Source of the DNA: Candidatus Nitrotoga sp. 1052
Lineage (GTDB): Bacteria > Pseudomonadota > Gammaproteobacteria > Burkholderiales > Gallionellaceae
Reading direction: 5' to 3'
Assembly (NCBI RefSeq): GCF_927312905.1
Contig: NZ_CAKMHQ010000015.1
Span: forward strand, 1 to 35,071
DNA length: 35,071 bases
The notes below the pieces were generated by a model, which made no database searches, had not been told where the DNA came from, and saw nothing but the letters and a program-made list of their open reading frames with translations. The stretch's first letter is position 1; each line of letters opens with the position of its first letter. Of the stretch, positions 8,857 through 35,071 are shown piece after piece. A program made the translations under genes and the position numbers.

Positions 8857-10551
8857 TCATCCACGCTTTTCAGGCGCTACTGAGTCCGTTGCCAGAGTAT
8901 CGCTGATGATGGTTTGTGCTTCTGTCAGAATGCGGTGTAAATGATCAACTCCACGAAAGCTCTCGGCATAGATTTTGTAAATGTTTTCTGTGCCGGACGG
9001 ACGCGCCGCAAACCACCCTTGTTCTGAAATTACCTTCAATCCGCCAATGGACGCGCCGTTACCTGGCGCGTGGGTCAGGATAGTCTGAATTTTTTCGCCA
9101 GCCAAATCTGTGGAGCGGATCTGCTGTGGCGAGAGTTTCGCCAGCATTTCCTTTTGCGCTGGCGTAGCCGGCGCATCAATGCGTTCGTAAACAGGCTCGC
9201 CGAATTCATGCGTTAACTCGCGGTATATTTCGCCGGGATCACGGTTCATGCGCGCGGTAATTTCCGCCGACAGCAAAGCCAAAATGATGCCATCCTTGTC
9301 GGTTGTCCATACAGATCCATCGGTTCGAAGAAAAGAAGCGCCTGCACTTTCTTCCCCACCAAAACCAAGTGACCCCTCGAACAAGCCATCCACAAACCAC
9401 TTGAAGCCGACGGGTACCTCGTAGAGCTTGCGGCCAAGCTTCGTGGTAATACGGTCTATCATCTGGCTACTTACTACCGTCTTGCCAACTGCCGCTGACT
9501 TGCTCCATTTCGGCCGGTGCTGGAAAAGATAGTTAATGGCGACAGAAAGATAATGGTTCGGCGGTAGCAGACCTGTGCTCCGGGTGACGATCCCGTGCCG
9601 ATCGTGGTCAGTGTCGCAAGCAAAAGCAATGTCGAAGCGATTTTTAAGGCCTATTAACCCTTGCATGGCATAAGGAGAGGACGGATCCATGCGGACTTGG
9701 CCATCCCAATCGACGGTCATGAAGCGGAATGTCGGATCGATGACTTTGTTCACAACCGTGAGGTCCAGGCTATAGCGATGGGCAATCGCGGTCCAGTAGT
9801 GAACGCCAGCGCCGCCAAGCGGATCCACGCCCATGTTAATGTTCGCATCGCGAATTGCGTTCATATCGATTACGCTACCGAGATCGTTTACATAAGCATT
9901 AAGATAGTCGTATCGGTGAGTCGTGGAAGCACGCAGGGCCTGTTCGTAAGGAATTCTTTTCACGCCTTTGAGGCCGTCTTTGAGAAACTCATTGGCCCTG
10001 GTTTCAATCCAGGCTGTTATAGCATTCTCTGCGGGCCCGCCATGTGGCGGGTTGTACTTGAACCCGCCGTCCTGGGGTGGATTGTGCGAAGGCGTGATGA
10101 CTATGCCGTCTGCCAGTCCTTTTTCGCGTCCGCGGTTGTAAACGAGGATCGCGTAAGAAATTACCGGGGTAGGAGTATATTCGTCGTTTTCCGCAATCAT
10201 CACCTCAACACGATTGGCCGCCAGTACTTCCAGTGCGCTGGCGTACGCCGGCATGGATAATGCATGCGTGTCGATGCCGAGGAATAGCGGACCATTGATA
10301 CCCTGCTGCTCGCGGTACTGGCAAATGGCCTGACAGATAGCAAGAACATGCCATTCATTGAAGCTTGTTGCTAATGCTGAACCACGATGTCCCGAGGTGC
10401 CGAACGTGACCTTTTGTGCAGGCACAGATGGGTCCGGTGTTTCCGTGTAGTAGGCGGTAACAAGTTTGGGTATGTCTACCAGCGCCGATAGCCCAACAGG
10501 TTTGCCTGCCAAGGGATTTATTTTTATGTTCGTATCTTCGAAGCTGCTCAT
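8857..10551 (-). CDS. pgm: Phosphoglucomutase (alpha-D-glucose phosphate-specific)
   Basis: A 564-aa enzyme interconverting glucose-1-phosphate and glucose-6-phosphate. It is colinear with the E. coli Pgm type: FGTSGHRGSA near the N-terminus, the phosphoserine loop ITPSHNPPQDGG, the metal-binding DTDHDRHG, the sugar loop GFGGEESAGAS and the phosphate-binding ARPSGTENIYKIY. Start 10551 follows a perfect AGGAGG; the frame is open 65 codons further, but that sequence is antisense-like and overlaps tkt. In this operon it bridges GlgP (glucose-1-P) and Zwf (glucose-6-P). It lies 58 nt after tkt and is followed by a 310-nt gap holding the MITE. Confidence 0.95.
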   Translation of the reverse strand: MSSFEDTNIKINPLAGKPVGLSALVDIPKLVTAYYTETPDPSVPAQKVTFGTSGHRGSALATSFNEWHVLAICQAICQYREQQGINGPLFLGIDTHALSMPAYASALEVLAANRVEVMIAENDEYTPTPVISYAILVYNRGREKGLADGIVITPSHNPPQDGGFKYNPPHGGPAENAITAWIETRANEFLKDGLKGVKRIPYEQALRASTTHRYDYLNAYVNDLGSVIDMNAIRDANINMGVDPLGGAGVHYWTAIAHRYSLDLTVVNKVIDPTFRFMTVDWDGQVRMDPSSPYAMQGLIGLKNRFDIAFACDTDHDRHGIVTRSTGLLPPNHYLSVAINYLFQHRPKWSKSAAVGKTVVSSQMIDRITTKLGRKLYEVPVGFKWFVDGLFEGSLGFGGEESAGASFLRTDGSVWTTDKDGIILALLSAEITARMNRDPGEIYRELTHEFGEPVYERIDAPATPAQKEMLAKLSPQQIRSTDLAGEKIQTILTHAPGNGASIGGLKVISEQGWFAARPSGTENIYKIYAESFRGVDHLHRILTEAQTIISDTLATDSVAPEKRG

Positions 10552-20951: not shown

Positions 20952-21019
20952 GGGCAAAAATCAAGAATGGAAAGGCATAACATAACAAGGGCGGAGGAGA
21001 CAGGTGTACGATAATATGC

Positions 21020-21105
21020 GTCTAACGCCTCGTTCAAGCGAACACCGCTCGCTTCGCTCGCGGTTCACGTTCTACGGGGTATCCCTCAACTTGAAAACGT
21101 TATGC
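21020..21105 (+). other. Integron attC site (59-base element)
   Basis: An 86-bp site with all expected parts in order: R'' GTCTAAC (21020-21026), L'' with GTTCAAG (21032-21038), an imperfect central palindrome rich in CGCTCGC/GCGG, L' with CTTGAA complementary to TTCAAG, and R' GTTATGC (21099-21105). Spacing and sequence are those of proteobacterial attC sites, recognised as folded single strands by IntI. Recombination would fall between G and TT of GTTATGC, opening the following cassette with TTATGC. Its R'' should complement the start of its own upstream cassette (TTAGAC), which I did not find. Confidence 0.8.
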
Positions 21106-21123
21106 GTCACGCGATTACACGCT

Positions 21124-21759
21124 ATGGCCATGAATCTGTTGCTTGAACCAGCTGTTCGTGTCAACGCCCGGTCTCTCAGCCTGTGGGTGGTTCTCCTCCT
21201 TCTTGCTTCGGCGATCGCTGTACTCGCTGCAACGGCTGCAATGCCTGCGGCTTACTCTTGGCGCGCTCACTCGATCAGCGAGTCTGCGGCGCAAGGCTTA
21301 CAGCACGCGTGGATTGCGCGCCTTGCCTTCGTCTGCTTTGGAAGTGCGGTTCTCACATTGTCCATACGAATGCGCCCGGTTTGGGCACGGGGTACGTACT
21401 GGATGCATCTCGTTTTTGCAGCTGCCATGCTCGGGACTGCAGCATTTTCGCATAGGCCGTGGATCTCCGGCGTGCCATTTGACGAATTCGAGGACTTTCT
21501 TCACTCGGTCACCGCAACAGGAATGGGTTTCGCCTTCTGCTTTGGTGTTGTCGCGAGGTTCATGCAGCGTAGCCGAAGCGAACTGCTGGCTCGCTCGCTC
21601 GACGTTTTCACTGTGGCGGTCGCCACCGCAATGCCACTGATCTCCGCGCTGTACCCTTCAAACGGTGGCCTGATCCAACGCGCAATGTTTCTCATAGCGT
21701 ACGTCTGGTATGGCAAGGAAGCACTGGACCCTCGCAGTGCCGCTTCGAGGAGACAATGA
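21124..21759 (+). CDS. DUF998-like integral membrane protein (integron cassette cargo)
   Basis: A 211-aa protein with about six hydrophobic segments (WVVLLLLASAIAVLAA, LAFVCFGSAVLTLSI, LVFAAAMLGTAAF, and three more). The pattern HSISE..., EDFLHSVTATGMGFAFCFGVV and QRAMFLIAYVWYG is that of DUF998 membrane proteins, whose function is unknown. ATG 21124 (or 21130) is the first start after the attC; upstream in-frame codons run through the attC and are not real. No ribosome site is seen, common in cassettes that begin close to R'. It is followed within 2 nt by the GCATAAC core. Confidence 0.72.
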   Translation: MAMNLLLEPAVRVNARSLSLWVVLLLLASAIAVLAATAAMPAAYSWRAHSISESAAQGLQHAWIARLAFVCFGSAVLTLSIRMRPVWARGTYWMHLVFAAAMLGTAAFSHRPWISGVPFDEFEDFLHSVTATGMGFAFCFGVVARFMQRSRSELLARSLDVFTVAVATAMPLISALYPSNGGLIQRAMFLIAYVWYGKEALDPRSAASRRQ

Positions 21760-21863
21760 CGCATAACCTTTCGTTCGAAGCCGACAGCCACCGGCGTACA
21801 GAAAACTCGCAATCAACCACAACGTCCCATCCAACCGGTTCAGCAGCGACTTGGCCTCGCTCA
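21760..21863. repeat. 104-bp direct repeat, copy 1 (half attC fused to intI fragment)
   Basis: Matches 31782-31885 in the same orientation with five mismatches in 104 bp. It begins CGCATAACC and ends CTCGCTCA. The sequences outside both ends are unrelated between copies. The first ~28 bases look like the R''-L'' half of an attC: GCATAAC, complement of the GTTATGC that opens the upstream cassette, then CGTTCGAAGCC. The rest encodes integron integrase on the minus strand. Confidence 0.88.
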
Positions 21864-21864
21864 T
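21768..21864 (-). pseudogene. intI: Integron integrase (intI) fragment, copy 1
   Basis: Minus-strand codons give [28 protein letters not shown], the middle of an IntI catalytic domain, where complete proteins continue with the first catalytic Arg region. Nothing of intI lies on either side: one end stops at the half attC, the other at unrelated sequence. It is a remnant only. Confidence 0.75.
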
Positions 21865-22093
21865 TAAATGATCAGATACCGACGTTTGGATTTACGCCAT
21901 TGCTGTCAGCCATGCGCTGAAGGTCTCAGCTGGGTCGGTTTGCGGCTCTCGCCACAGGCAGAGAGGGCTCATTCACACTGCTGGATTATCACGGCTCCAA
22001 TTCGGCACCTCATGATGACATAGTATGCTGGCAGAATTTAACGGTATCATGCAGACAGCCACCCTCTCCGAATAAATAAAACAAACGGCTCTC
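21865..22093. other. Gap before hsdM, no gene seen
   Basis: No credible ORF, hairpin terminator or strong promoter was recognised. It should contain the hsdM promoter and the left junction of the restriction island. Confidence 0.4.
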
Positions 22094-24253
22094 ATGAACA
22101 AAGAGCAACTCAAAAAGCTGGAAGCCGACTTATGGAGTGCCGCCGACAAGCTGCGTGCCAATTCCGACCTGAAGTCCAGCGAATACGCCACCCCGGTGCT
22201 GGGGCTGATCTTCCTCAAGTTCGCCGACAATAACTATCGCCGCCACGAAACAGAAATTCACGCCGAGTTCACCAAACTCAAAGGCACCCGCCGTGAGAAG
22301 AAAATCTCCGATATAGCCATCGAGAAGTGCGGGTTCTATTTGCCCGATCACGCGCGCTACGAACACCTGCTGAATCTGCCGGAAGAGAAGAACATTGCCA
22401 AAGCACTCAAGGAGGCGATGAAGGCCATCGAGGAATACAAGCCCGAGCTCGAAGGCGTGCTGCCCAAGGACGAATATGCCGCGTTGACGCGGACGGACAA
22501 GACCATCCCGCAGCAGTTGCTGCGAACCTTTGCTGACATCCCAGCCGATACCACTGGCGACCTGTTCGGGCAGATTTACGAATACTTTCTGTCCGAATTC
22601 GCGCGCAGCGAAGGCCAAAAGGGTGGCGAGTTTTTCACGCCGCGTTCCGTGGTGCGCCTGATGGTCGAGATCATCGAGCCGCACGGCGGCAAAGTGTTCG
22701 ACCCCGCTTGCGGCTCCGGCGGCATGTTTGTGCAGTCTGCCCAGTTCATCGCGGAACACCGCAAGGAGCTGAAAGGATCGGAGAGCGGCGTGTATGTCTG
22801 CGGCCAGGAAAAAACGCGCGACACCGTCAACCTCGCCAAGATGAACCTCGCGGTCAACGGCCTGCGCGGCGAAATCAAGCAGGCCAACACCTACTACGAA
22901 GACCCGTACCAGAGTTTTGGTGCATTCGATTACGTCCTCGCCAATCCTCCGTTCAACGTGGACGACGTGAGCCTCTCCAGCGTGGAGAAAGACAAGCGCT
23001 TCAACACCTACGGCATCCCGCGCAACAAATCGAAGGTGAAGAAAGCCGACGAAGGCAAGGAAACCGTACCCAACGGCAACTACCTGTGGATCAGCCTGTT
23101 CGCCACTTCTTTGAAAGAAAAGGGCCGCGCCGCGCTGGTCATGGCAAATTCGGCCTCCGATGCGCGCCACTCCGAAGCCGACATCCGCAAGACGCTGATC
23201 GAGCAAAACCTCATCTACGCCATGCTGACGCTGCCCTCGAACATGTTCTACACCGTCACGCTCCCGGCCACACTGTGGTTCTTCGACAAGGCCAAGACCG
23301 ACGACAAAATCCTGTTCATCGACGCGCGCAACATCTTCACCCAGATAGACCGCGCCCACCGTGAATTCAGCGAAGAACACATCCAGAACATCGCCATCAT
23401 CAGCCAGTTGCACAAAGGGCGGCGCGATAAATTCGTCCAGCTCATAGACCGCTATTTCGCGGCAGGCATGGCACGCCTAGTCGAAAACAAAACCAACGTC
23501 GAACCCGTCGCTACGCAATTGCTCGAAGTGCTGGATGACGCAGGCGGCAAACAAGCCGTGGGCGAACTGGTGCAGCAATGGGCAGGGTTGGCGAAACTCA
23601 AAACCCGTTACGAGAAATATCTGCAACAAAACGCGGCTGTCATTTCGAACACTTCAACTGTCATTCCGAGCGTATGCGAGGAATCTTCCGCGCACTACAA
23701 GATTTCTCCCGTTGGTCGAAATGACAGCTCTGAAATTAACGCCATCAACAAAGCGCAGCAGCAATTGCGCGAAGCGTTCGATCCGTTCTTTGTCGCGTTG
23801 CACGAGGGCTTGAAGCGCCTAGACAAGGTCGTGCGCCAGCACGAGAAGCAGCAGGCCGAACAGGCGCATGCCGAAGGCAAACGCGGCACGACTGACCGCA
23901 AGACCAATGCGCTCAAGGGCGCGTTGGAGGCGCTACACACTGAAGTGAAGAACGCCGAAATCTTCTATCAGCACATCCACTGGCTACAGGAACGCTTTCC
24001 CAAGGCGGAATATGAAGATGTCACCGGCCTGTGCAAACTCGCAAACTCGACAGACTTGAAGGAGCAGGACTATTCGTTGAATGCTGGGCGCTACGTCGGC
24101 GTAGTGATCGAGGAGGACGGGAAGACGGAGGAGGAGTTTATCGAAGAACTGTTGGCGATAAACGATGAACTGGCAAAGCTTAATAAGGATTCGTTGAATG
24201 TTGGATCAGCAATAACCAGTAATATTCGGAGCCTGCTAGGGGATGGTTCATGA
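22094..24253 (+). CDS. hsdM: Type I restriction-modification DNA methyltransferase subunit M
   Basis: A 719-aa N6-adenine methyltransferase subunit that works with HsdS to methylate a bipartite target. Residues 1-150 are the HsdM N-terminal helical domain (LEADLWSAADKLRANSDLKSSEY). The methylase domain has the SAM motif DPACGSGGMF at 203 and the catalytic NPPF at 284. GEFFTPRSVVRLMVEII and NYLWISLFATSLKEKGRAALVM are typical. The C-terminal third is charged coiled-coil. Residues about 516-545 are encoded by a palindromic repeat inserted in frame and are not expected in the family. The ribosome site is weak. Its stop overlaps the hsdS start in ATGA. It appears functional. Confidence 0.93.
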   Translation: MNKEQLKKLEADLWSAADKLRANSDLKSSEYATPVLGLIFLKFADNNYRRHETEIHAEFTKLKGTRREKKISDIAIEKCGFYLPDHARYEHLLNLPEEKNIAKALKEAMKAIEEYKPELEGVLPKDEYAALTRTDKTIPQQLLRTFADIPADTTGDLFGQIYEYFLSEFARSEGQKGGEFFTPRSVVRLMVEIIEPHGGKVFDPACGSGGMFVQSAQFIAEHRKELKGSESGVYVCGQEKTRDTVNLAKMNLAVNGLRGEIKQANTYYEDPYQSFGAFDYVLANPPFNVDDVSLSSVEKDKRFNTYGIPRNKSKVKKADEGKETVPNGNYLWISLFATSLKEKGRAALVMANSASDARHSEADIRKTLIEQNLIYAMLTLPSNMFYTVTLPATLWFFDKAKTDDKILFIDARNIFTQIDRAHREFSEEHIQNIAIISQLHKGRRDKFVQLIDRYFAAGMARLVENKTNVEPVATQLLEVLDDAGGKQAVGELVQQWAGLAKLKTRYEKYLQQNAAVISNTSTVIPSVCEESSAHYKISPVGRNDSSEINAINKAQQQLREAFDPFFVALHEGLKRLDKVVRQHEKQQAEQAHAEGKRGTTDRKTNALKGALEALHTEVKNAEIFYQHIHWLQERFPKAEYEDVTGLCKLANSTDLKEQDYSLNAGRYVGVVIEEDGKTEEEFIEELLAINDELAKLNKDSLNVGSAITSNIRSLLGDGS
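23659..23726. repeat. Palindromic repeat copy 1, in frame inside hsdM
   Basis: The element runs from TGTCATTCCGAG to TCGAAATGACA and contains GAGGAATCTT and AAGATTTCTCC, the hallmarks of the other three copies. A related half unit, TGTCATTTCGAA, precedes it at 23638-23649. The reading frame stays open through it, adding roughly 30 residues (VIPSVCEESS...VGRNDSS). Confidence 0.8.
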
Positions 24254-25506
24254 ATAGGAAGGATGAAATCGCACTCGGCAAAACAAAGACTCAGTTTATT
24301 GATGGTGACAGGTCTTCCCGTTACCCCAAGCGAGAAGAGTATGTAGAGTCGGGGATCATGTTTCTTAATGGCGAATCAATACATGGTGGATTTATTGATA
24401 GAAATGCCGTAAATTTTATTGCTGAGAAAAAATATAGTGAAATTAAAAAAGGCAGGATTGCAAGAAATGATATTGTTCTTACGACAAGAGGAAATAGCGT
24501 AGGGGATGCGGCATTCGTCAATATTGATGACAAGGGCCTAATCAATGCCCAGATGCTAATTTTGCGTGTAGATAGCAAAGAAATTCATCCAAAATTTTTC
24601 TTTTATTACATCACAAGCCAAAGCTTACACAGTTACATATTGAACTTTGCTTCTGGCTCCGCGCAACCACAAATACCAATACGAGATCTTCGGAAAATAC
24701 CAATTTGTCTGCCTAAACATCACATTCAAAGAAAAGTTGCGGCGATACTTACGGCGTATGACGAACTGATTGAAAACAACCAGCGGCGCATTGCGCTGCT
24801 AGAAAAGATGGCCGGAGAAATCTATAGAGAATGGTTTGTCCGTTTTCGTTTTCCGGGCTATTTAGATACGAGGAAGGTAAAAGGTATTCCTGAAGGATGG
24901 AAAGTTGAAAGGCTTGGCAACATTGCATGCTCAGTCAAAGAAAAATATGTTGATCTTGAGCACCAAGAATGGCCGCTGGTCGATTTAGAAAAGATGTCAC
25001 AAAGAAGTCTTGCAGTTACCAACACAGGAAATCCAGCTGAACTGACTACCTCAAGAATTTTATTTGCTCGGAACGACATCTTGTTTAGCACCATACGCCC
25101 ATATCTGTACAAGGTGAATATGGCTCCGTTCCAAGGCGTTACTAATACTTCAGTTATGGTGCTGCGACCCCGCATTCCAGAATATCGAGCATTTGTTACG
25201 ATGACCTTGTTTATGGGCAGCACTATCGCTTGGGCTGACCAGTACAGCGCTGGAACAAAAATGCCAGTGATTTCATGGAACGTATTTCAGAAAATGGAGC
25301 TATTTGATCCTGGATTTTATCTGGCGGCCCAATTTGACGATTTAGTTTCGCCAATCTTGGATCAAATCAATAGCCTGTCTATCCTTAATAGAAGATTGGC
25401 TCAATCCAGAGATATGCTTCTCCCGCGCCTCATCTCCGGCAAACTCTCCGTCGAAAACCTCGACATTCAGTTCCCGCCCGGCATGGAGAAAGATGCCCAT
25501 GCCTGA
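24250..25506 (+). CDS. hsdS: Type I restriction-modification specificity subunit S
   Basis: A 418-aa DNA-recognition subunit. Two target recognition domains are visible: residues about 1-165 ending SGSAQPQIPIRDLRKIPICLP, and about 215-375 with YSAGTKMPVISWNVFQKMEL. A conserved spacer helix (AAILTAYDELIENNQRRIALLEKMA) lies between them, and a related helix at the end (SLSILNRRLAQSRDMLLPRLISGKL). The N-terminal TRD starts a little short compared with usual HsdS. The start overlaps hsdM by 4 nt and has GGGGATGG upstream. The TRD1 sequence is AT-richer than hsdM, as often seen with exchanged recognition domains. The target sequence cannot be predicted. Confidence 0.92.
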   Translation: MNRKDEIALGKTKTQFIDGDRSSRYPKREEYVESGIMFLNGESIHGGFIDRNAVNFIAEKKYSEIKKGRIARNDIVLTTRGNSVGDAAFVNIDDKGLINAQMLILRVDSKEIHPKFFFYYITSQSLHSYILNFASGSAQPQIPIRDLRKIPICLPKHHIQRKVAAILTAYDELIENNQRRIALLEKMAGEIYREWFVRFRFPGYLDTRKVKGIPEGWKVERLGNIACSVKEKYVDLEHQEWPLVDLEKMSQRSLAVTNTGNPAELTTSRILFARNDILFSTIRPYLYKVNMAPFQGVTNTSVMVLRPRIPEYRAFVTMTLFMGSTIAWADQYSAGTKMPVISWNVFQKMELFDPGFYLAAQFDDLVSPILDQINSLSILNRRLAQSRDMLLPRLISGKLSVENLDIQFPPGMEKDAHA

Positions 25507-25537
25507 CTTCATCGCTAAAGACGACCACAAACCAACT

Positions 25538-25604
25538 GTCATTTCGACTGAAAGGAGAAATCTTGCAGTGCGCTTAAGATTCCTCACTTCGTTTCGGAAT
25601 GACA
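25538..25604. repeat. Palindromic repeat copy 2, after hsdS
   Basis: TGTCATTTCGACTG...GGAGAAATCTT...AAGATTCCTC...CGGAATGACA. Same family as the copies in hsdM and near the GIY-YIG gene. It lies 31 nt after hsdS; another half unit (CGGAATGACAG) follows at about 25616-25626. Confidence 0.75.
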
Positions 25605-25642
25605 AAGAGGGTGAGCGGAATGACAGCTTCGCTATGGCGGAC

Positions 25643-26065
25643 TTACAGCGCCCAAGGGTTAAACACCTGCGGGTACAGCGCGAAATCCTGCAAGTTGCGG
25701 GTGACCACGGTGAGGCCGTGGCATTGGGCGGTGGCCATGAGCAGGCCGTCCATCACCGGCATGGGTTGGCCGGCCAGTTCGGAGTGTGCAGCGATTTGCG
25801 CCCAGACGTGGAACGCGGCGGCATCGAGCGGCAGGATGCGCCCGGCAAAGCGTTGCTCCACCTTGCCCAGCCAATTGGTGAGTTTCTGGCTGCGGCGCAG
25901 GTCGGCTTTGCGCAGTTTGAGGATGCCTTTTTCGATCTCTCCCAGCGTGATGACGCTGATAAACAGGCTAGCTTCGTCCTGTTCGTCCAGCCAGGCGATC
26001 ACTTGCTGCGCGGGGGCTTTCCTGGCGTATTCGGAAAGCACGCAGGTGTCCAGCAGCCAGCTCAT
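25643..26065 (-). CDS. PIN-domain toxin (VapC/FitB-like)
   Basis: A 140-aa PIN-domain ribonuclease, toxin of a type II toxin-antitoxin pair. The fold starts with LLDTCVLSEYARK (first acidic residue Asp6), followed by SVITLGEIEKGILKL (conserved Glu), then MPVMDGLLMATAQCHGLTVVTRNLQDF with the remaining Asp residues. All acidic positions expected for Mg-dependent RNA cleavage are present. It overlaps the antitoxin gene by 4 nt (ATGA) and is translated after it. The module is inserted against the direction of the restriction operon, between hsdS and hsdR. Confidence 0.9.
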   Translation of the reverse strand: MSWLLDTCVLSEYARKAPAQQVIAWLDEQDEASLFISVITLGEIEKGILKLRKADLRRSQKLTNWLGKVEQRFAGRILPLDAAAFHVWAQIAAHSELAGQPMPVMDGLLMATAQCHGLTVVTRNLQDFALYPQVFNPWAL

Positions 26066-26313
26066 AGCTCAATGTTGCGCCCGATGTCGCGGCTGCGGGA
26101 AATGTCCAGGTCTTCGGCTGCGAGGTCGGGACGCAGCAGCGCGGCGGAGAGCTTGCCTCGGCGGCGGGTAAGCCGCGCGTATTCTTCCGCCGAAACCACC
26201 ACCGCCGTGGGTTTGCCGTGGACGGTGACCGTTTGGGCATCGCCACTCGCCGCTCGCTTGATGAGCTGGCTGAAGTTGCCCTTCGCTTCTTGCAGTTGCC
26301 ATTCGCTGTGCAT
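26062..26313 (-). CDS. Phd/YefM-family antitoxin
   Basis: An 83-aa antitoxin. The N-terminal WQLQEAKGNFSQLIKRAASGDAQTVTVHGKPTAVVVSAEEYARL is the Phd/YefM DNA-binding and dimer fold; the C-terminal tail (LLRPDLAAEDLDISRSRDIG) would wrap the PIN toxin. GGAGG lies about 7 nt before ATG 26313. Family knowledge suggests it represses its own promoter, which would lie just upstream at about 26320-26400. Confidence 0.9.
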   Translation of the reverse strand: MHSEWQLQEAKGNFSQLIKRAASGDAQTVTVHGKPTAVVVSAEEYARLTRRRGKLSAALLRPDLAAEDLDISRSRDIGRNIEL

Positions 26314-26406
26314 GATTGCCTCCGTTATTCCTGGCGTTAATTCTGGCCAGACTGGGCAGAATTTAACACAAAGCTTGCGGGTTGGCTATGCCTAACTTCA
26401 CTGGGC

Positions 26407-26499
26407 TGTCATTTCGACCAAAGGGAGAAATCCTGTAGTGTGCGTAAGATTCCTCACGGAGCCTGCCCTGAGCGAAGTCGAACGGGTTCGGAATGACAG
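26407..26499. repeat. Palindromic repeat copy 3, between antitoxin and GIY-YIG genes
   Basis: TGTCATTTCGACC...GGGAGAAATCCT...AAGATTCCTC, then a 29-bp insert GCCTGCCCTGAGCGAAG.. and CGGAATGACA. The same insert, inverted, occurs in copy 4. It lies in the probable promoter region of the antitoxin gene. Confidence 0.75.
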
Positions 26500-26558
26500 T
26501 TTTTTTTGGGATGACGGGCTTTTGGGAATGATAGGTTCTGCAATAAGAGGTAAGGCTG

Positions 26559-26873
26559 ATGGGCAAAACCTACTACGTTTACCTGCTGACTAACTGGAAC
26601 AACAAGGTGATGTATATCGGTGTTACCAGCAATCTTGAACTCCGGGTCTATGAGCACAAAAATAAGCTGGTTGAAGGCTTTACTCAAAAGTACAACGTGA
26701 ATAAGCTGGTTTCCTTTGAGAGCACAAACGATGTATTGGCGGCCATTGAGAGGGAGAAACAGATCAAAAAATGGCGGCGTGAAAAGAAAAATCAGTTAGT
26801 GACTGGGATGAATCCGGAATGGAAGGATTTGAGTTTGGAGTGGGGGAAAGATTTCTCCTTGCAGTCGAAATGA
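26559..26873 (+). CDS. GIY-YIG nuclease-domain protein
   Basis: A 104-aa small GIY-YIG protein (UPF0213/YhbQ-like). The N-terminus YYVYLLTNWNNKVMYIGVTSNLELRVYEHK contains the equivalents of GIY and YIG and the conserved Arg; EREKQIKKWRREKKNQLV closes the domain. AGAGG lies about 9 nt before the ATG. The last few codons (DFSLQSK) and the stop lie inside repeat copy 4, so the C-terminus was remodelled by the repeat. Such proteins are common in this repeat-rich context. A link to restriction is not shown. Confidence 0.85.
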   Translation: MGKTYYVYLLTNWNNKVMYIGVTSNLELRVYEHKNKLVEGFTQKYNVNKLVSFESTNDVLAAIEREKQIKKWRREKKNQLVTGMNPEWKDLSLEWGKDFSLQSK

Positions 26874-26933
26874 CAAAGCTTGTCATTCCGAACCCGTTCG
26901 ACTTCGCTCAGGGCAGGCTCCGTGAGGAATCTT
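26849..26933. repeat. Palindromic repeat copy 4, overlapping the end of the GIY-YIG gene
   Basis: AGATTTCTCC...GTCGAAATGACA is followed directly by TGTCATTCCGAACCC..GAGGAATCTTG, an inverted arrangement relative to copy 3, including the inverted GCCTGCCCTGAGC insert. It ends about 50 nt before the hsdR start. Confidence 0.75.
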
Positions 26934-26982
26934 GTAGCGGCTAAAAACTATTCGCCGCTTTTTACAATGATGATTTGAAAAT

Positions 26983-29900
26983 ATGCCTAACTTTATTTCC
27001 GAAGATCAGATCGAGCAGGTGCTGGTGCAGAAGCTCCAGCACCTGCACGGTTTCGATGCGCTCGACTGCTACACGGAAAATGCGGAAGACTTGAACGATG
27101 GCTCAAACCGCGCCAACAAGCGCGATGTGATTCTGGTGGAGCGGGTGCGGGAAGCCGCCATCCGCCTGAACCCGGACATTCCACCTACAGCCATCGAGGA
27201 TGCGCTGGATAAGTTGCTCGACCGGCGGCAGGCATTGACGCTGATCGCCGCGAACCGGGAAATTTATGGCCTGCTGCGCGACGGCATCCCGGTGGAATTC
27301 GACAACGCGCAGGGGGTGCGGCAGCAGGAGCTGGTGCGGCTGCTGGATTTCAACACGCCGGACAACAACCGCTATCTGGTCGTTACCCAGCTGTGGATCA
27401 AGGGCGAGCGCGGTTTCCGCCGCCCAGATGTGTTGCTCTACGTCAACGGCATTCCGCTGGTGTTCATCGAGCTGAAAAACTCGAACGTGAAATTGCGCAA
27501 CGCCTACGACGACAACCTGATGAATTACAAGGCGGAGATTCCACAGCTTTTCCTGACCAACGCATTTTGCGTGCTGACCAACGCTATCGAGACCAAGGTG
27601 GGCAGCATTACGGCGGAGTGGGAGCATTTTTTCAACTGGCTGCGTGCGGATGACGAGAAGGAGAAGATAGACCGCGCCGCAATCCGCGAACAAGGCATCA
27701 GTCTGGAAGGCGTGATTGAAGGTTTATTGCCACAGAAGAGACTGCTGGACTACGTGGAGAATTTCATTCTCTACTACAAGGATAGCTCGAAGATCATCGC
27801 GCAGAACCACCAGTTCATCGGCGTGAACAGGGCGTATGACGCCTTTCTCAGGCGCGAGGAGCTGGCGGGTAAACTGGGGGTGTTCTGGCACACGCAGGGC
27901 TCGGGCAAAAGTTTTTCGATGATTTTTTATGCGCGCAAAATTTTCCGCAAACAGACTGGCAATTTCACCTTCGTGGTGGTGACCGACCGCGACGATCTGG
28001 ACGGGCAGATTTATCGTAATTTCCTGAACACCCGCACGGTCAGCGAGGCCGAAGCCGCTCAGCCTAAGAACAGCGAAGAGATGCGTCGTTTCCTCGGACA
28101 GAACAAACGGCTGGTGTTCACCTTGATCTAGAAGTTCTGCTGGGACAAAGGCCGGGAGTATCCCGAGCTATCAGCGCGCAACGACATTATCGTTATCGTA
28201 GACGAGGCGCACCGCACGCAATACAAGTCGCTGGCGGAAAACATGCGCAAGGGTTTGCCCAGGGCGAACTATCTGGCGTTCACCGGCACGCCGCTGCTGG
28301 GGCGCGAGCGCAAGACTAATGCGTGGTTCGGCGGTTACGTTTCGGAATACAACTTCCAGCAATCCATGGACGACGGCGCGACGGTGCCGCTGTATTACGA
28401 GAAGCGCGTGCCGGAAGTGTTGATCCAGAACGAAGGATTGAGCGAGGAATTCTACGAGATTCTGGAAGACGAGAATCTGGATGAGGCGCAGCAGGCCAAG
28501 CTGGAGCGGCGCTTTTCCACGCAGGTCGAGGTTATCAAACGCGACGACCGGCTGGAGAAAATCGCGCGTGACATCGTCTATCACTTCCCCCGGCGCGGTT
28601 ATCTGGGCAAGGGGTTGTTTGTGGCGGTGGACAAGTTTACCGCCGTGAAAATGTACGACAAGGTGCAGGATCAGTGGAAGGCCGCCTTGAAGGAGATGGT
28701 CGGGCGTATCGGCAAGACGACAAACGACATCGAGAAGGCGCGGCTGAAGAAAATTGTCGAGTACATGCGCTCGGTGGAAATGGCGGTGGTCATCAGCGAA
28801 GACGCAGATGAGGAAAGGAAGTTTGCGGATCAGAAGCTGGACATCAAGCCGCACCGCGAGCGCATGAACAAGCTGGATGCGCACGGTCACGACATTGAAT
28901 TCAACTTCAAGGACCCGGAAAGTCCGCTGCAATTGGTGTTTGTGTGCGCCATGTGGCTGACAGGCTTTGATGCGCCCACGCTGTCGACGCTGTATCTCGA
29001 CAAGCCGATGCAGGCCATACCCTGATGCAGACCATCGCCCGTGCCAACCGCGTTACGTCATGGAAGATCAACGGGGTGGAAAAGCACAACGGCGAGATCG
29101 TGGATTACTACAACGTGTTCCGCAACATGAAGTTGGCGCTGAAGGATTACGCGCAAGGCGGCGATGAGATTGACCCGCCGGTGAAAGAAAAAGCAGAGTT
29201 GTTTATTCTGCTTGACGATGCGATTGAACAAGGCTTGGCGTTCTGCCATGAGAAAGACGTTCCCTTGCGCGAAGTGTTGGGCAGCGCGGATGTGTTCGAA
29301 AAGCTTGGCCGCTTTAATGTCTTTGCCAATGCTTTGCTGGCAAACGATGAATGGCGCAAGGGTTTCAATGTGTATGAGAACACCATCACGTCGCTGTATG
29401 AGGCGTGCAAGCCGGAAGTGCTGGGTCGCGGCAAGGGGCGTGAAGTGGCGGCGTTCCAGTATTTGCGTGGGGTGATAGACAGCCTCATCGGGCAGACGGA
29501 CATCGACGCGATCAGCCTGAAGATTGCCGAGCTGCTGGATGAGAGCGTGGTGGTAAATGATGCGGAGGCATTCAAGGCGCGGCAGTACAACGCGGAATAC
29601 CAGATCATCCAGAAGGGCAAGACTTGGGATCTCAGCAAGATTAACTTCGACAAGTTGCGCGAGGAGTTCAAGCAGGCAACCTACAAGAACATTGAAATCG
29701 CCGACCTGCGCGCCTTCCTGCAACACAAGATCGAATTGATGCTACAACAGAACGCGACGCGCACCGACTTTGCACAGCGGCTGCAGCAGATAATTGACGC
29801 TTACAATTCCGGCGGCTCATCCACCGAAAATTCTTATGAAGAACTGATAAAGTTCACCGAGGATTTACGCGCGGAGGAAGAGCGGCATATTCGCGAGGGG

Positions 29901-30209
29901 CTATCTGAAGACGAGTTGGAACTGTTCGACTTGCTGAAGAAAGACAAGATGACGCAAGAGGAAACGCAGAAGGTGAGGCTCGCGGCGAAATCGCTGCTAC
30001 ATCGCTTGCTGGAAGAACAACCCAAGGTGCTGGTGCAGGACTGGTACAAGGATACGCAAACCAAGAAGATGGTGCGCTCCGCCGTTGAGAAAGTTCTGGA
30101 TAGCAACTTGCCAGAAAGCTATGACCGCGTGCTGTTCCGGGAAAAATGTGACAACGTGTTTTACCTGATGCTCGATTATGCGAGCCATGGCAGGAAATGG
30201 GCGGCTTAA
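26983..30209 (+). pseudogene. hsdR: Type I restriction enzyme subunit R, interrupted by an amber codon and a frameshift
   Basis: About 1,075 codons of an HsdR motor-nuclease, near the normal family length. In order: the nuclease core D149-x13-E163-L-K165 (RPDVLLYVNGIPLVFIELK), Walker A GSGKS at 306-310, DEAH at 407-410, FTGTPLLGRERKTNAW, and DYYNVFRNMKLALKDYAQGG. TAG at 28129-28131 replaces an expected Gln (LVFTLI-Q-KF), a single C-to-T change. Near 29013 one base is missing: CAGGCCATACCC in place of a sequence encoding QAHTLMQTIARANR. After it the protein continues in another frame to 30209. Apart from these two lesions the sequence is well preserved, so loss is recent or an assembly error. 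HsdM and HsdS are intact, so methylation without cleavage is predicted. Confidence 0.9.
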
Positions 30210-30289
30210 GTTTATATGCTTAATCAAGAGACATGACGAATCCCCAGCACGCGACGTAGGACAAGGGGAATTGGAATTATGATGACAAA

Positions 30290-30795
30290 TTCCATGAATA
30301 ATCCGTGCTTGGCCCCTTTCATTCCAGGCATAACAAGATGAACATGGGGGGTGATAATCCAGCCGGCGCGTGTTCGTATGCAACACTGCTATGGCGCCGG
30401 GCGTGCCCTAAAGCTGTCTGTCGTTCTGGCTGAAGGTAGGCACCGTCTCCCAACAACACCGCATGAGCAAATCGTAGACGACGCTCTGGTGCGCAAAGGT
30501 TAGTGCCCTGAATTCTGCGGGCAGGGTGAACGTCAGCAGAAAGTACTCGGCGGGCACCTGCTTCCTCATCTGGCGTTCCAGACATTGCTGACTCTCATGA
30601 TGCTGGCAGTGCGGGCAATGGCGATGGCCGCAGGAATTCGGCACTCACTTCTGATGCTCACATTCCAAGCACTGAACCTGCATCTTGGGGCTGGCTTGCG
30701 TGCGGCCTTGCTTTATGGCCGCGAGTGCCCGATAGTGCCCAGGCCTGAGCCGATCACGGTATTGCGCAAAAAAAGTTCGCCTCGAAGGTTTCGAT
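30290..30795 (-). pseudogene. IS91-family transposase remnant
   Basis: Minus-strand pieces match the N-terminal third of an IS91-type Y2 transposase: [16 protein letters not shown], a zinc finger (CLEC...SCGHRHCPHCQ), then PAEYFLLTFTLPAEFRALTF and VLHTNTRRLDYHPHVHLVMPGMKG. It carries TGA at 30645-30647, TAG at 30408-30410 and an extra base in a six-C run (30347-30352). The catalytic tyrosine part is missing. It directly follows the tyrosine recombinase gene, the usual partner order in some IS91-type elements. Confidence 0.78.
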
Positions 30796-31676
30796 GACTG
30801 AAGCAAGCCGGATCATTTGACCTGCCCCCAGGCGATGCTTGGTCTGGTCAGTCAGATGGGTATATTGGGCCGTGGTGAGAATAGAATGATGGCCGAGGAT
30901 CTTCTGCACCTCGATCAGATCGATACCGGCCTCGATCAGGTGGGTCGCATAGCTGTGGCGCAAGCAGTGTGGCGTGCTCTTTTTTTGAGTACGCAGGCCT
31001 CGACCACCTTGTGCATGGTGGTCTGCACACCGCCACGATCCAGGGGCGTCGTGGCGGTCGCCGTGCCTTTCAAACCGCCGTGGCGATTGGGAAACAACAG
31101 CACGGGGTTGCGATGCACTTGCCAGAAGCTTTGCAAGAGCGTGTGTGTCGCTTGCGGCAGTGGAACAAAACGATCCCTGTTTCCCTTGGCATCGCGGATA
31201 AGCACGCGCCAGCGCGCCGCATCAATATCCCCAACCTGAAGCCGCAGCCCTTCGCCGAGGCGCAGTCCCAGGCTGTAGAGCGTGAAGAAGAATACCCGGT
31301 AACTCAGAACGCGGGTGGCGGCGAATATCCGCTGCGCCTGTGCGATCGTGACGATGTCTGGCAAGCGCTGCGTCTTGGGGGGCTTGATCAGACCGGGAGC
31401 CACCCAGGGTTTACGCAAAACATGTGCGTAGCAAAACTTCAACCCATACAGGTCAAGCTTGACCGAACTCCATGAGTGCGATGCCACAAGATCGGTGAAG
31501 TAGTCCACCAACTGCTGCTCGGACAGACTGTCAATTTGATGATCAAAGAATTCGCCGATTCGGCGGATGGCGCGCGAATAGGCCTCGATGGTTTTTGGCT
31601 GTAGGCATTTAAGCTTCAGGTGCTTCAGATGCGACTGGTAGTTCAGTTTGAAATTTGCGCCGGACAATGCGTCCAT
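30754..31676 (-). pseudogene. XerD-like tyrosine recombinase of an IS91-type element, frameshifted
   Basis: About 305 codons on the minus strand. The SAM-like N-terminal domain ([34 protein letters not shown]) precedes the catalytic domain with Arg in [18 protein letters not shown], Lys in [13 protein letters not shown], then [15 protein letters not shown] and Tyr in YTHLT. The last three are in a different frame because of a one-base shift in a seven-A run (30980-30986). All catalytic residues exist in sequence, so a corrected read would give an intact enzyme. No clear ribosome site precedes ATG 31676. The frame is also open upstream into the intI fragment. It overlaps the transposase remnant. 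Confidence 0.8.
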
Positions 31677-31781
31677 CTTAAGATAACTTCGTAGTTCGTC
31701 ATGGAACAATCCTTCGCGAGAAGGGGTGAGATTATATTTTGACTTCGGCCCGTCGAAACTGCATCCTCCGCGTAGCGGCTT

Positions 31782-31885
31782 CGCATAACCCTTCGTTCGA
31801 AGCCGACAGCCATCGGCGTATAGCAAACTCGCAATCAACCACAACGTCCCATCCAACCGGTTCAGCAGCGACTTGACCTCGCTCA
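31782..31885. repeat. 104-bp direct repeat, copy 2
   Basis: Second copy of 21760-21863 (99 of 104 identical). Here it is part of the longer intI remnant on its right side. On its left it joins a sequence with GTAGCGGCTTC that leads to the recombinase. The two copies bound a 9.9-kb island. Confidence 0.88.
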
Positions 31886-32221
31886 CCGTCAATACCACCG
31901 GCAAGCGTTGTGGTGTTTTTGCCTGCGTCTCATTGTCCAGCCATGGCAACTCCAGCGCCAACACTTTGCGATAAAGAAACAGCAGCGCGCTCTTTGCCTG
32001 ATTTTGGGTCGAACGCCACCTTGCCCGCCACTGCCAGATGCGACAAAAAAGCCTCCAACTCCGGCGCACCCATCTGCGCCGGATGGGTCTTGTGGTGGAA
32101 CAAAATGTAGCGTTTAATCCAATCCAGACAAACACTCTCAGTGCGGATGTTATGGTGCTTCATGTGCAACACGGCTTGCACTTGATCGAGTAATTTTGGC
32201 GGGTTTTCGGGGGGTAGGCAT
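31787..32221 (-). pseudogene. intI: Integron integrase (intI), truncated, two frameshifts
   Basis: The N-terminal ~145 residues of an integron integrase on the minus strand: [53 protein letters not shown], then [62 protein letters not shown]. One extra base lies in the six-C run (32209-32214) after the ATG, and an extra T near 32012 shifts the frame. At 31789 the gene stops at GGTTATGCG; the rest of the catalytic domain, including the IntI-specific insert and the nucleophilic Tyr, is gone. It cannot be active in cis. Confidence 0.85.
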
Positions 32222-32376
32222 AGCGAGGCGTTAAAAACCGGTTAACATCTTGATAAAAATCAGATTGTCTTGATTTTAAATTAAGTTAAAAATTCTTACC
32301 ATGTTTGTAAACCAATCCGATAAAATTTTTAGTGTTTTATTGGGATCTACTTTTCGTTAACTGATGCAGGGGCGAT
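32222..32376 (+). other. AT-rich leader between intI remnant and lipase gene, candidate attI region
   Basis: In an integron, attI and the cassette promoter lie directly upstream of intI on the side facing the cassettes, which is this gap. It is strongly AT-rich compared with its flanks. GTTAACT at about 32357 and GTTAAAA at 32232 resemble but do not exactly fit GTTRRRY. No paired binding sites typical of attI could be recognised, so this rests on position. Confidence 0.3.
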
Positions 32377-33312
32377 ATGAGCTTTGATCAACGTTTTCGA
32401 GATGCGCTCAATGTCGCTTCCAAGGTGACAGACTGGGATGATCCCTACTTCACTTGGGAGAAGGCATATATCGCATCTGTCTTTTCACTTGCGGCATACC
32501 AGCACATTCCCGAGTTCGAGATCGAGAACGCCGAGAGAGCGAAGTTAATCCCGTGTGAGGAGTACCAAGCGACCTTCGCAAGCCAGTCTTTCACCGCTGC
32601 GCAAAGCTCCCTACAAACGCAAGATGCTGCAAACATCTTTGTTGTTGTGCGGGAAAAGGTGGTAGTTGTCCTCTCGAAGATCAAGACTGCGCTCTTCATA
32701 TCCTTGCGTGGCACCCAGAGCCTCTACGATCTCGCCGCAGACCTGGATCTTCGGAGGGTGCGTTTTCCTCCTGAGAAGGATTCGTTGATTCAACTACATC
32801 GAGGGTTTTTTGAGGCAGTCGCATCTTGTTTGCAAGAGGTCATCGCTCGGGCCGCCGAGCGCTTAGACGACGACACGCCGCTGTACATAACTGGCCACTC
32901 GCTGGGCGGCGCTATGGCTGCCATAATGAACGCTCAGATGCTCGCCGGCGTGGCTTGGCGTTCTCGTGCATTCGTGCGGCGCCCCTACTGGCGGCTACTT
33001 CCAACAGCCTGTTTCGCTTTCGGAATGCCGCGCTACGGGAATCGCTATGCGGTTTCGCAACTTGCATACCCCTTCCACGTTTACAACGAGCGCGATGTCG
33101 TTCCAACCATTCCGCCTCGTCTCCTCGGCTTTGCCGACAGCCCCGACGAATACTGCTTAACCGCTGCCGGAAGGCTCTTGCGGCCGCACGAGAAGGGCGG
33201 AGGTCTATTCAGACTACGGGGTGGAAGGCTGCAGGCCCTGGGCGCAAAGGAACACAAGATGGAGCGCTACGTGGAACGGGCAGAGTCAGCGCACAAGAAT
33301 GGCGTCAGCTAA
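32377..33312 (+). CDS. Class 3 lipase-family protein
   Basis: A 311-aa alpha/beta hydrolase. The nucleophile elbow TGHSLGGAM sits near residue 173, preceded by LFISLRGTQSLYDLAADLDLRRV and LHRGFFEAVASCL, the standard class 3 lipase pattern. NERDVVPTIPPRLLGF supplies the catalytic Asp; the His is less certain (perhaps RPHEKGG). No signal peptide is visible, so it appears cytoplasmic unless exported otherwise. CAGGGG lies about 7 nt before ATG 32377. It is the first gene beyond the intI remnant, in cassette orientation, but no attC follows. The substrate is unknown. Confidence 0.85.
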   Translation: MSFDQRFRDALNVASKVTDWDDPYFTWEKAYIASVFSLAAYQHIPEFEIENAERAKLIPCEEYQATFASQSFTAAQSSLQTQDAANIFVVVREKVVVVLSKIKTALFISLRGTQSLYDLAADLDLRRVRFPPEKDSLIQLHRGFFEAVASCLQEVIARAAERLDDDTPLYITGHSLGGAMAAIMNAQMLAGVAWRSRAFVRRPYWRLLPTACFAFGMPRYGNRYAVSQLAYPFHVYNERDVVPTIPPRLLGFADSPDEYCLTAAGRLLRPHEKGGGLFRLRGGRLQALGAKEHKMERYVERAESAHKNGVS

Positions 33313-33322
33313 CGAGTAAGGT

Positions 33323-33353
33323 AGGTTGGGCTGAATGAAATGAAGCCCAACCT
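33323..33353. repeat. Hairpin AGGTTGGGCT / AGCCCAACCT
   Basis: A perfect 10-bp stem with an 11-nt loop, 10 nt after the lipase stop. It could terminate or protect the lipase transcript, but no T run follows. The sequence resembles a REP-like repeat common downstream of proteobacterial genes. A half-related CTCAACCTACC occurs at 34143-34153. Confidence 0.55.
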
Positions 33354-33406
33354 GCCAGGCTGATCAAGCAGCCCTTAACTTTTCGCCATTTACATGGAGA
33401 GTAAAA

Positions 33407-34138
33407 ATGCACATAACGAACAAGCAGTCTGGGACGAATATTTATGAAGTTGCGGATGGGATTTACCGCATCAATACGCCGGTTGTTATAGAAGGCGGGC
33501 TCGGCGGGTTCTCATTCAATCAGTTCCTTATTGTCGATGATGCGCCATTGCTCTTCCACACCGGACCGCGCAAAATATTTCCGCTGGTTCGGGAGGCGGT
33601 CGCGAGCGTGTTGCCCGTGGAGCGGCTGCGCTACATTGGCTTATCGCACGTTGAAGCAGATGAGTGCGGTTCGCTCAATGACTGGCTCACGGTGGCGCCA
33701 CAGTCCTCACCGCTATGCGGCAAGGTGGCAGCGCTGGTGTCAATTGATGATATGGCCGACCGACCGGCGCGCGCACTCGCGGACGGGGAAACGCTTACGC
33801 TTGGAAAACATACCATGCGCTGGTTCGACACGCCGCATCTGCCTCACGCGTGGGAATGCGGTTTTATGATGGAAGAACAAACGCGGACATTGCTATGCGG
33901 CGATCTGTTTACACAGGGCGGCGCTGAACATCCAGCCATCACTGAGTCGGATATCTTGGGGCCGAGCGAGGCGTTCCGTCAGGTGATGGATTATTATTCA
34001 CACACTCAGAACGCGCGCGTGATGCTTGAAAGACTGGCCTCCGCCGAGCCGACAACGCTTGCGTGCATGCATGGCAGCACATGGAAGGGCGACGGAGCGA
34101 AGCTTTTGCGCGCGCTTGCCGATGTGCTGTCGCCATAA
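33407..34138 (+). CDS. MBL-fold protein of the oxygen-binding di-iron (ODP/FprA-like) type
   Basis: A 243-aa metallo-beta-lactamase-fold protein. The usual HxHxDH is replaced by SHVEADECGSLNDWL, the form found in di-iron flavodiiron-like and ODP proteins (H-x-E-x-D). LPHAWECGFMMEEQTRTLLCGDLFTQGG supplies further ligands, and CMHGSTWKGDG the last His. There is no flavodoxin domain, so if it reduces O2 or NO it needs a partner, or it acts as an oxygen sensor. GGAGAG lies about 9 nt before ATG 33407. It stands alone between the lipase and peptidase genes. Confidence 0.85.
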   Translation: MHITNKQSGTNIYEVADGIYRINTPVVIEGGLGGFSFNQFLIVDDAPLLFHTGPRKIFPLVREAVASVLPVERLRYIGLSHVEADECGSLNDWLTVAPQSSPLCGKVAALVSIDDMADRPARALADGETLTLGKHTMRWFDTPHLPHAWECGFMMEEQTRTLLCGDLFTQGGAEHPAITESDILGPSEAFRQVMDYYSHTQNARVMLERLASAEPTTLACMHGSTWKGDGAKLLRALADVLSP

Positions 34139-34192
34139 TGACGCTCAACCTACCGGGCTATCCCGATTAGCCGTCTTCTGGCCGAGCCAATC

Positions 34193-35017
34193 ATGCGTCA
34201 TTTTCGGATCATCGTTCTTCTACTGACCGCAAGTCTCCTCAGCGGATGTAGCGTTCTTCAAGGAGGCAAACTCCTTGCACCAGAGAACTTCGGTTTAACT
34301 CCGGTTGCCCCAAGAATCTATGTTGAGACAGGTGCAGACGAAGCGATACGGGGCAAGCTCCGCGAGGCCATGGATAAAGCAGAAGACGCTATACGTGCCG
34401 CATACGGCAGCGTGAACTCACGTCCCATAGTCCACGCTTGTATCACCGAGGGATGCTATGAAGCATTCGGAGGGCGGGGCTCTGTGGCGAAGGTCTACGG
34501 CGATCGCATCCTGCTTTCGCCGCGTGGGCTGAACTGGCATTTTCTCGCTCACGAATGGTCACACGCTGAAATGCGCTCCCGTCAGACCCTCAGCGCATGG
34601 TGGCATTTGCCGGAATGGTTTGATGAAGGTGTGGCAGTTGCGGTAAGTGAGGCACCAGAGCACTCTGAAAGTCACTGGCAATTCTTGGTGGCGGCCAATA
34701 TTCCTCGCCCAACGCGCGAAGAATTGCATACCTTCAAGTCATTGAGGCAGTGGCTTGACGCAGTTCACCGATACGGCGAGGACAAAAATATTGAACGCAA
34801 AGCTAAGGGTGAACCTGAAATTAGTCCGGTCTATGCAACGGCGGGGCATGAGCTACGGCCTTGGCTCGCGAAAGTTGGTAGCCATGGGCTTCTTACTTTC
34901 ATAGCGCGGCTGAATGGCGGAGAGGAATTTGAGTCCGCTTACCAGACTGGTAACATTGCGGTCGTGAGGGACGCTCCGCAAGCGGCGTTGCCGCTCGCTA
35001 CGCGCCCCTCACCTTAA
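34193..35017 (+). CDS. Lipoprotein with gluzincin-type metallopeptidase motif
   Basis: A 274-aa envelope lipoprotein. Residues 1-19 are a lipoprotein signal with lipobox LSGC (Cys19). The middle has LAHEWSHAEM, an HExxH zinc motif, followed by LPEWFDEGVAVAVSE whose Glu would be the third zinc ligand, as in peptidase MA-like enzymes. YGDRILLSPRGLNWHF precedes it. Two Cys (HACITEGCYE) may pair. ATG 34193 has only weak ribosome-site sequence. It begins 55 nt after the di-iron gene and may be co-transcribed. The substrate is unknown, and no exact family name is offered. Confidence 0.75.
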   Translation: MRHFRIIVLLLTASLLSGCSVLQGGKLLAPENFGLTPVAPRIYVETGADEAIRGKLREAMDKAEDAIRAAYGSVNSRPIVHACITEGCYEAFGGRGSVAKVYGDRILLSPRGLNWHFLAHEWSHAEMRSRQTLSAWWHLPEWFDEGVAVAVSEAPEHSESHWQFLVAANIPRPTREELHTFKSLRQWLDAVHRYGEDKNIERKAKGEPEISPVYATAGHELRPWLAKVGSHGLLTFIARLNGGEEFESAYQTGNIAVVRDAPQAALPLATRPSP

Positions 35018-35071
35018 CGTTGAGGCTGTAGAAAAACCCAAATCCACCCAAAAATCCACCTCACAATCTGC

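Follow-up and report, generated by a model that had tools for sequence, protein, structure and literature searches.

How does half of an integron recombination site come to stand on both sides of a restriction-modification (R-M) cluster, with its edge placed almost exactly at a recombination core? This question is raised by a contig of Candidatus Nitrotoga sp. 1052 (NZ_CAKMHQ010000015.1; 35,071 nt), which was analyzed at its full length and is called the window below. It is one entire contig (C15) of a draft genome of 3.23 Mb in 99 contigs. Two 104-bp direct repeats, each composed of half an attC site and a fragment of an integron integrase gene (intI), flank a block of about 10 kb that contains type I R-M genes. 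The initial annotation, which was made from the sequence alone, described the block as a restriction island and suggested that a chromosomal integron had been rebuilt around it, either through integration of a circle or through integrase-type exchange at the core. Comparison with related genomes indicates that the odd repeat edge is probably the end of a little-described IS91-type element that lands on integron recombination sites. G, C and L numbers are used below for genomes, contigs and loci, respectively.

Structure of the direct repeats

A repeat search of the window recovered a single direct-repeat family (104 nt, 95% identity, spacing 10,022; coordinates in Table 1). Local alignment gave 99 identical positions out of 104; the five mismatches lie in an ungapped match that could not be extended in either direction, which bears out the earlier description of two copies with nothing alike outside them. 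The longest exact repeat in the window has 51 nt, compared with 13-15 nt in 20 two-base block shuffles. Both copies had also been said to start at the same core. The core, GCATAAC, is indeed shared, but the repeats begin one base ahead of it.

The approximately 31 bases that follow the first base of the repeat are not derived from intI and resemble the 5' arms of attC sites, in which the core (R'') is followed by an L'' box. For the arm of the right copy (31,783-31,813), three non-self matches with a score of at least 15 were obtained in 0.66 Mb of compared loci, whereas none of 1869 core-anchored positions in shuffled sequence reached this score. DNA similarity to 17 other intI loci begins 28-50 bases into the repeat (31,809-31,831). 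The right copy runs on into a second intI, which is decayed and retains its N-terminal 43%, and tblastn with the intact IntI of the host (320 aa) aligned residues 5-138 from 32,199 down to 31,800 on the minus strand, in two pieces (55% and 72% identity) that lie in different frames. The arm matches and the tblastn match confirm that each repeat consists of half an attC and an intI fragment. Named records carrying related intI genes include Burkholderiales, Nitrosomonadaceae and metagenome-assembled genomes of Accumulibacter.

The left copy lies directly 3' of the stop codon of the last left-hand cassette gene, which encodes a DUF998 protein. This cassette opens at the core GTTATGC of a complete attC, and GTTATGC is complementary to GCATAAC, as would be expected of the two cores of one cassette; the left copy therefore appears native to its cassette. 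The right copy, in turn, looks native to intI and its attI. At repeat positions 43 and 95 every homologue agrees with the right copy (13/13 and 17/17), and at positions 32 and 40 the counts lean weakly to the left copy (2/2 and 6/13). The comparison did not single out an ancestral copy, two sites pointing to the right one and two weakly to the left one.

A search of 158 genomes of the family turned up no second instance of the half-attC/intI junction: apart from that of the window itself, matches reach at most a few bases past it. Contig C37 of G031 gave one 38-base match ending at 31,820, and C40 of G041 a match that covers an element end plus an attC arm. Short N-terminal intI fragments, cut at varying points, recur in several genomes of the genus (L013, L018, L021, L022, L026 and L028).

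An IS91-type element ends on the core of the right copy

Directly left of the right repeat copy lies the terminus of a mobile element remnant, comprising a tyrosine recombinase gene that starts approximately 107 bp from the repeat and a truncated IS91-type transposase gene. Over positions 31,659-30,327 the remnant shares 64% DNA identity with an element found in many copies in G313, a genome of another family. A search for the exact 16-base terminus, carried out with no condition on the core, retrieved ten ends (window included), and all ten are followed by a core-like heptamer. With a pattern that requires the core-like heptamer, and with repeated lines counted once, 27 ends were obtained, five in the host (window included) and 22 in relatives. 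This count leaves out eight chance pattern rows and four attI-type rows, and the pattern missed an end on C76 of G015 (core GTCTAAC).

To locate attC sites, a covariance model was built from 23 of 26 selected element-free attCs (L153:5952, L078:2115 and L026:944 were omitted); two finders based on stem complementarity missed the attCs of the window itself. Ten of the 27 ends abut a model-detected attC at its core (nine with E ≤ 0.04 and one with 0.16), and in all ten the R'' box faces the recombinase-side end. Three of these (in G009, G001 and G010) have flank sequence in common and could go back to one old insertion. In the main element family, the core of the occupied attC is of the element type, GTYCAAC, in seven of eight cases and ATCCAAT in the eighth, whereas among 53 unoccupied attCs GTYCAAC was found once and GCATAAC four times. 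The idea that the core is target-derived in every copy was rejected on this comparison. The target-type core in the window might be accounted for by two-strand exchange with an overlap of 6 bp or by conversion of the core to that of the left copy.

An A7G run (about 30,960, minus strand) marks a change of frame in the recombinase gene of the window. The same -1 change was observed at A7G or A8G in G313, G009, G218 and G404; a second host copy, on C85, has the A-run too, with a listed open reading frame (ORF) that stays open across it. A copy in G015 with A6G and both plasmid copies are in one frame throughout. Such recurrence makes a programmed frameshift more likely than decay at this position. 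Against the integron integrase model TIGR02249, the C85 recombinase scored 129, below the cut-off of 265 (host IntI, 486), and the C85 transposase scored 92.8 bits against NF033538 (transpos_IS91), below the cut-off of 125.

The target consensus corresponds to the R''-L'' arm

G313 contains 34 recombinase matches of practically equal score, and five copies that were compared are 99.96-100% identical over approximately 2449 bp. In total, 32 junctions were analyzed, leaving out the L243 and L267 copies, whose ends differ, and the one on the right in a tandem pair. GTT stands to the left of the element at 32/32 junctions and to the right at 31/32 as listed, or at 29/30 independent flanks, since L248 runs into the next copy and the first L266 row borrows the end of the next copy. 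The target consensus is CTYGAA-N6-GTT-R (T at -14, 31/32; A at -11, 26/32; G at -12, 23/32; C at -15, 23/32; A at -10, 22/32). The form TYGA-N6..8-GTT occurs at 18 of the 32 targets, compared with 84 of 2655 background GTTs in the same loci, element copies included. A model-detected attC is abutted by nine of the 32 junctions (eight with E ≤ 2e-5 and one with 0.06).

The consensus is the R''-L'' arm of an attC in duplex form, read on the other strand. The arm of the window, when read on that strand (TTCGAACGAAGGGTT), matches it as well. The R''-L'' half of an attC appears to be the entire site that such an element needs.

Related elements in other genomes and on a resistance plasmid

The extent of the mobile unit could be delimited in G009, where two copies are 99.7% and 99.0% identical over two shared stretches. 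With a slash marking the border, the unit runs from G/TTGGAC to the G/TT that follows an attC-like hairpin. This hairpin forms its last 63 bp or so, and a stem search showed that its first core complements the start of the unit in G009; the attC model does not detect this end hairpin. The Pfam content of the element comprises PF00589, PF14319 and PF04986, plus a weak TrwC match, and the full transposases of G313 and of the plasmid described below combine PF14319 (zinc-binding) with PF04986 (Y2_Tnp). We call the unit cassette-like and not a gene cassette outright, because 23 of the 32 G313 junctions have no detected attC and the model missed the end hairpin.

An element built in a like manner is present in the Escherichia coli IncC plasmid NZ_LT985243.1 (L268). 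It lies in a class 1 integron array, with aadA1 on one side and qacEdelta1 on the other. Its recombinase-side end lies on an attC-type core, which, to judge by position and sequence, probably belongs to the attC of aadA1. NZ_LT985243.1 is the sole record with this element copy in two collections: a 2339-bp stretch of it had no match in E. coli genomes and matched two plasmid records, one of which is itself. In addition, a second subfamily of recombinase/IS91 elements (30% recombinase identity) was found at a GTT core just upstream of intI, presumably attI, in G014 and G073. Its terminus is also present in two further intI loci (L087 and L104), so that four loci, together with L154 and L092, carry it.

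These observations suggest, at about an even chance in our estimation, that an IS91-type lineage took up a tyrosine recombinase and cassette-like ends and lands on duplex R''-L'' arms of attCs, or on presumed attI cores in the second subfamily. Under this proposal a recombinase other than IntI would read the arms in duplex form, and insertion sequences and gene cassettes would be linked by an extant transitional form, the element itself.

Origin of the duplicated arm

For the window, we propose the following course of events. The attC of the cassette that ends at 21,759 would have been reduced to its R''-L'' arm by loss of the 3' half and fused to a middle part of an intI already in decay. This arm matches the duplex site of an IS91-type element encoding a tyrosine recombinase and a Y2-type transposase. 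Comparison with the other copies shows that such an element occupies the right-hand arm, its recombinase-side end lying on the core; the R-M (hsd) module is located on the inner side of the element. The duplication would then require one illegitimate join (21,863/21,864) and one crossover between two versions of the locus, one with hsd, element, arm and intI and the other with cassette, arm and intI. The crossover could have been achieved by a circle integrated through a single event within the 104 bp, the first of the two routes in the initial annotation, or by unequal exchange with sister or incoming DNA. Since elements of this kind end on such cores, the position of the repeat edge would follow, and cassette exchange by IntI is not needed. 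The locus looks today like a decayed scar, with a truncated transposase, hsdR in three ORFs and a cut intI. Taken as a whole, from the relict integron and the arm-intI join to the element on the right arm, the illegitimate join and the crossover, we regard this proposal as evenly poised between right and wrong.

Several observations weigh against it. The model detects no complete attC at 17 of the 27 ends, the window among them, nor at 23 of the 32 G313 junctions. Within the compared loci, the flank is duplicated at one of the 27 ends, that of the window. The core of the window is of the target type (GCATAAC), unlike those of the occupied attCs of the main family, and the five differences between the repeat copies give no clear ancestral direction. 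Moreover, the 158 family genomes yielded no parent version, empty site or circular junction. Another variant, in which one-ended IS91 transposition proceeded past the recombinase-side end and carried the 104 bp along, was set aside because it fails to give the observed left neighbour.

Other explanations start from the same facts. The arm-intI junction may have been duplicated locally in tandem, with the element landing on the second copy and hsd arriving in between, accompanied by deletions. The five differences, which suggest that the copies are not recent, would suit this history, as would the separate borders of the element and hsd elsewhere; it requires more steps, however, and no tandem version was found in the family genomes, and we consider it rather unlikely. 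It is also conceivable, if unlikely, that a 10-kb circle with its own tyrosine recombinase was integrated site-specifically at the R'' core in the manner of a genomic island, which would make the repeats attL and attR. Direct repeats do flank the block, both begin at the same core, the recombinase gene lies close to the right copy, and a target-type core at the element end would suit two-strand exchange with a 6-bp overlap. However, the recombinase is part of a short element, which in G313 (the 2449-bp unit) and G009 is mobile independently of hsd, and the other 26 ends show no flank duplication.

The exchange of the left neighbour of one repeat by IntI at the core, one of the two routes offered by the initial annotation, is very unlikely in our view. 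The edge does lie at an attC core, the R'' box is reported as the one used when IntI recombines the top strand of attC (PMC2727003), and intact IntI is encoded in G313 and in the host. Against this, the neighbour is a fixed, recurrent IS91-type element end found on many cores, which that annotation had overlooked. G009 has two copies that are 99.0-99.7% identical and no IntI match above the family cut-off (the best match contains two stops), a weak argument against IntI having moved them. An assembly artefact, which the 99-contig state of the draft and the coincidence of the window with one whole contig might suggest, is hardly credible: the contexts of both repeats are coherent, and ordinary reads should resolve two copies of 104 bp that differ at five positions.

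Comparison with known systems

IS91 has a known tetranucleotide target. The full-length transposases of G313 and the plasmid share PF14319 and PF04986 with this family, and the window holds a remnant; unlike in that family, a tyrosine recombinase gene precedes the transposase and the target is attC-arm-like. An IS91-like element, ISShvi3, has been described next to an attC in Shewanella sp. Choline-02u, where it is said to have given rise to a gene cassette of new structure (PMC9229058). In contrast to the present elements, it is a single case; the passage on it mentions neither a target rule nor a recombinase, and no insertion sequence that interrupts an attC is reported in that paper.

Two other kinds of element share the landing site, and one of them, the group IIC-attC introns, encodes a reverse transcriptase. 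These introns and IS1111-type elements land on attC sites, as stated in PMC9229058, and the attC-targeting IS1111-type elements have a DEDD transposase according to PMC11187229. Our elements resemble the latter in ending on R'' of attCs (10/27 and 9/32), whereas Pfam revealed no IS110/IS1111-type transposase; they act alike without being members. The units also resemble integron gene cassettes, running from G/TT to G/TT with an attC-like end hairpin, and differ from them in that the model misses this hairpin and most G313 copies lie away from detected attCs. With tyrosine-recombinase genomic islands, the locus shares direct repeats and a recombinase gene beside one of them. SE-6945 and SE-6283 of Vibrio alfacsensis are tyrosine-recombinase elements as well, with a 6-bp crossover region and, according to PMC9345347, no attC- or attI-like target motif, unlike the attC-arm-like site targeted here. 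In a literature search with few subscription papers in reach, we recognised no account of an IS91/tyrosine-recombinase element with attC-arm specificity.

Most work on attC sites concerns their folded single-stranded form, on which the integron integrase acts. If the proposal is true, a transposon that picks R''-L'' would make duplex use of attC arms testable, given the 34 equal-scoring copies in G313 and the plasmid case beside a resistance cassette, and likewise the ways in which cassette arrays acquire transposase genes and are remodelled by them. A caution follows as well: a half attC at an unexpected border may be the scar of such an element and need not stem from cassette exchange.

The restriction module and the relict integron

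Pfam domains for all three type I subunits (HsdM, HsdS and HsdR) confirm the R-M cluster that had been placed between the repeats. hsdR is not intact, being split over three ORFs, whereas the three corresponding matches in G018 have their starts in a common frame. Similarity of the hsd block ends near 21,993 in G011, near 22,072 and 30,219 in G016, and near 30,205 in G018, and the model found no attC at E ≤ 1 in the hsd-bearing stretches of these three relatives. To judge from these limits, the module is a separate block with its own borders, and the suggestion that an integron was rebuilt around it finds no support. For the same reason, hsd as a part of the mobile element was ruled out, the G313 unit being 2449 bp long. 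Between hsdR and the element remnant lies a repeat of about 90 bp (30,233-30,325), and copies with approximately 80% identity occur in many genomes of the genus.

The window holds a relict, decayed integron. Two complete attCs were detected by the model, the second with E = 1.5e-7, in agreement with the old chromosomal integron that had been described. The integrase gene is present here as a fragment only, and an intact intI lies on host contig C67. Similarity to G009 (85% over 32,117-32,358) breaks off at a GTT core, where the region taken as the putative attI of the second integron ends. No matches were obtained when the window was scanned with Rfam models or for tRNA genes.

Table 1. Features of the window (positions in the 35,071-nt contig)
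Feature	Coordinates	Strand	Basis
Complete attC preceding the last left-hand cassette	21020-21105	+	attC covariance model, E=6e-4
Cassette with DUF998 gene (listed ORF 21004-21759)	21102-21759	+	start core GTTATGC complements R'' core of left repeat
Left repeat: R''-L'' arm of the cassette's attC joined to intI piece	21760-21863	+	
Stretch holding the putative illegitimate left join 21863/21864	21864-21992	.	21858-22000, searched in 158 family genomes, recovered its own copy alone
Type I restriction module: hsdM 22094-24253, hsdS 24250-25506, further gene 25493-26395, hsdR in three ORFs 26983-30209	21993-30219	+	Pfam; borders from G011, G016, G018
Insert with GIY-YIG gene between perfect 53-bp inverted repeats 26446-26498 / 26881-26933	26399-26982	.	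absent in G018, where its neighbours abut
IS91-type element remnant: tyrosine recombinase (start near 31676) and truncated IS91-type transposase; outer end 31782	30327-31782	-	
Right repeat: core GCATAAC and L'' arm (31783-31813), then intI	31782-31885	+	
N-terminal fragment (residues 5-138 of 320) of second intI, with frame change	31800-32199	-	tblastn with intact host IntI
Putative attI of second integron	32183-32358	+	G009 similarity stops at GTT core 32356-32358
Right-hand genes: lipase-like 32377-33312, ODP-type 33407-34138, and 34193-35017; end in complete attC 34948-35025	32357-35025	+	

The contig end (35,002-35,071) is a repeat, present also at L052:1-54, that is found after the R' core of several attCs (L003, L164, L167, L096 and L053). 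In L053, where it occupies 9922-9991, it is followed by a 507-aa transposase-like ORF, possibly another element landing beside an attC.

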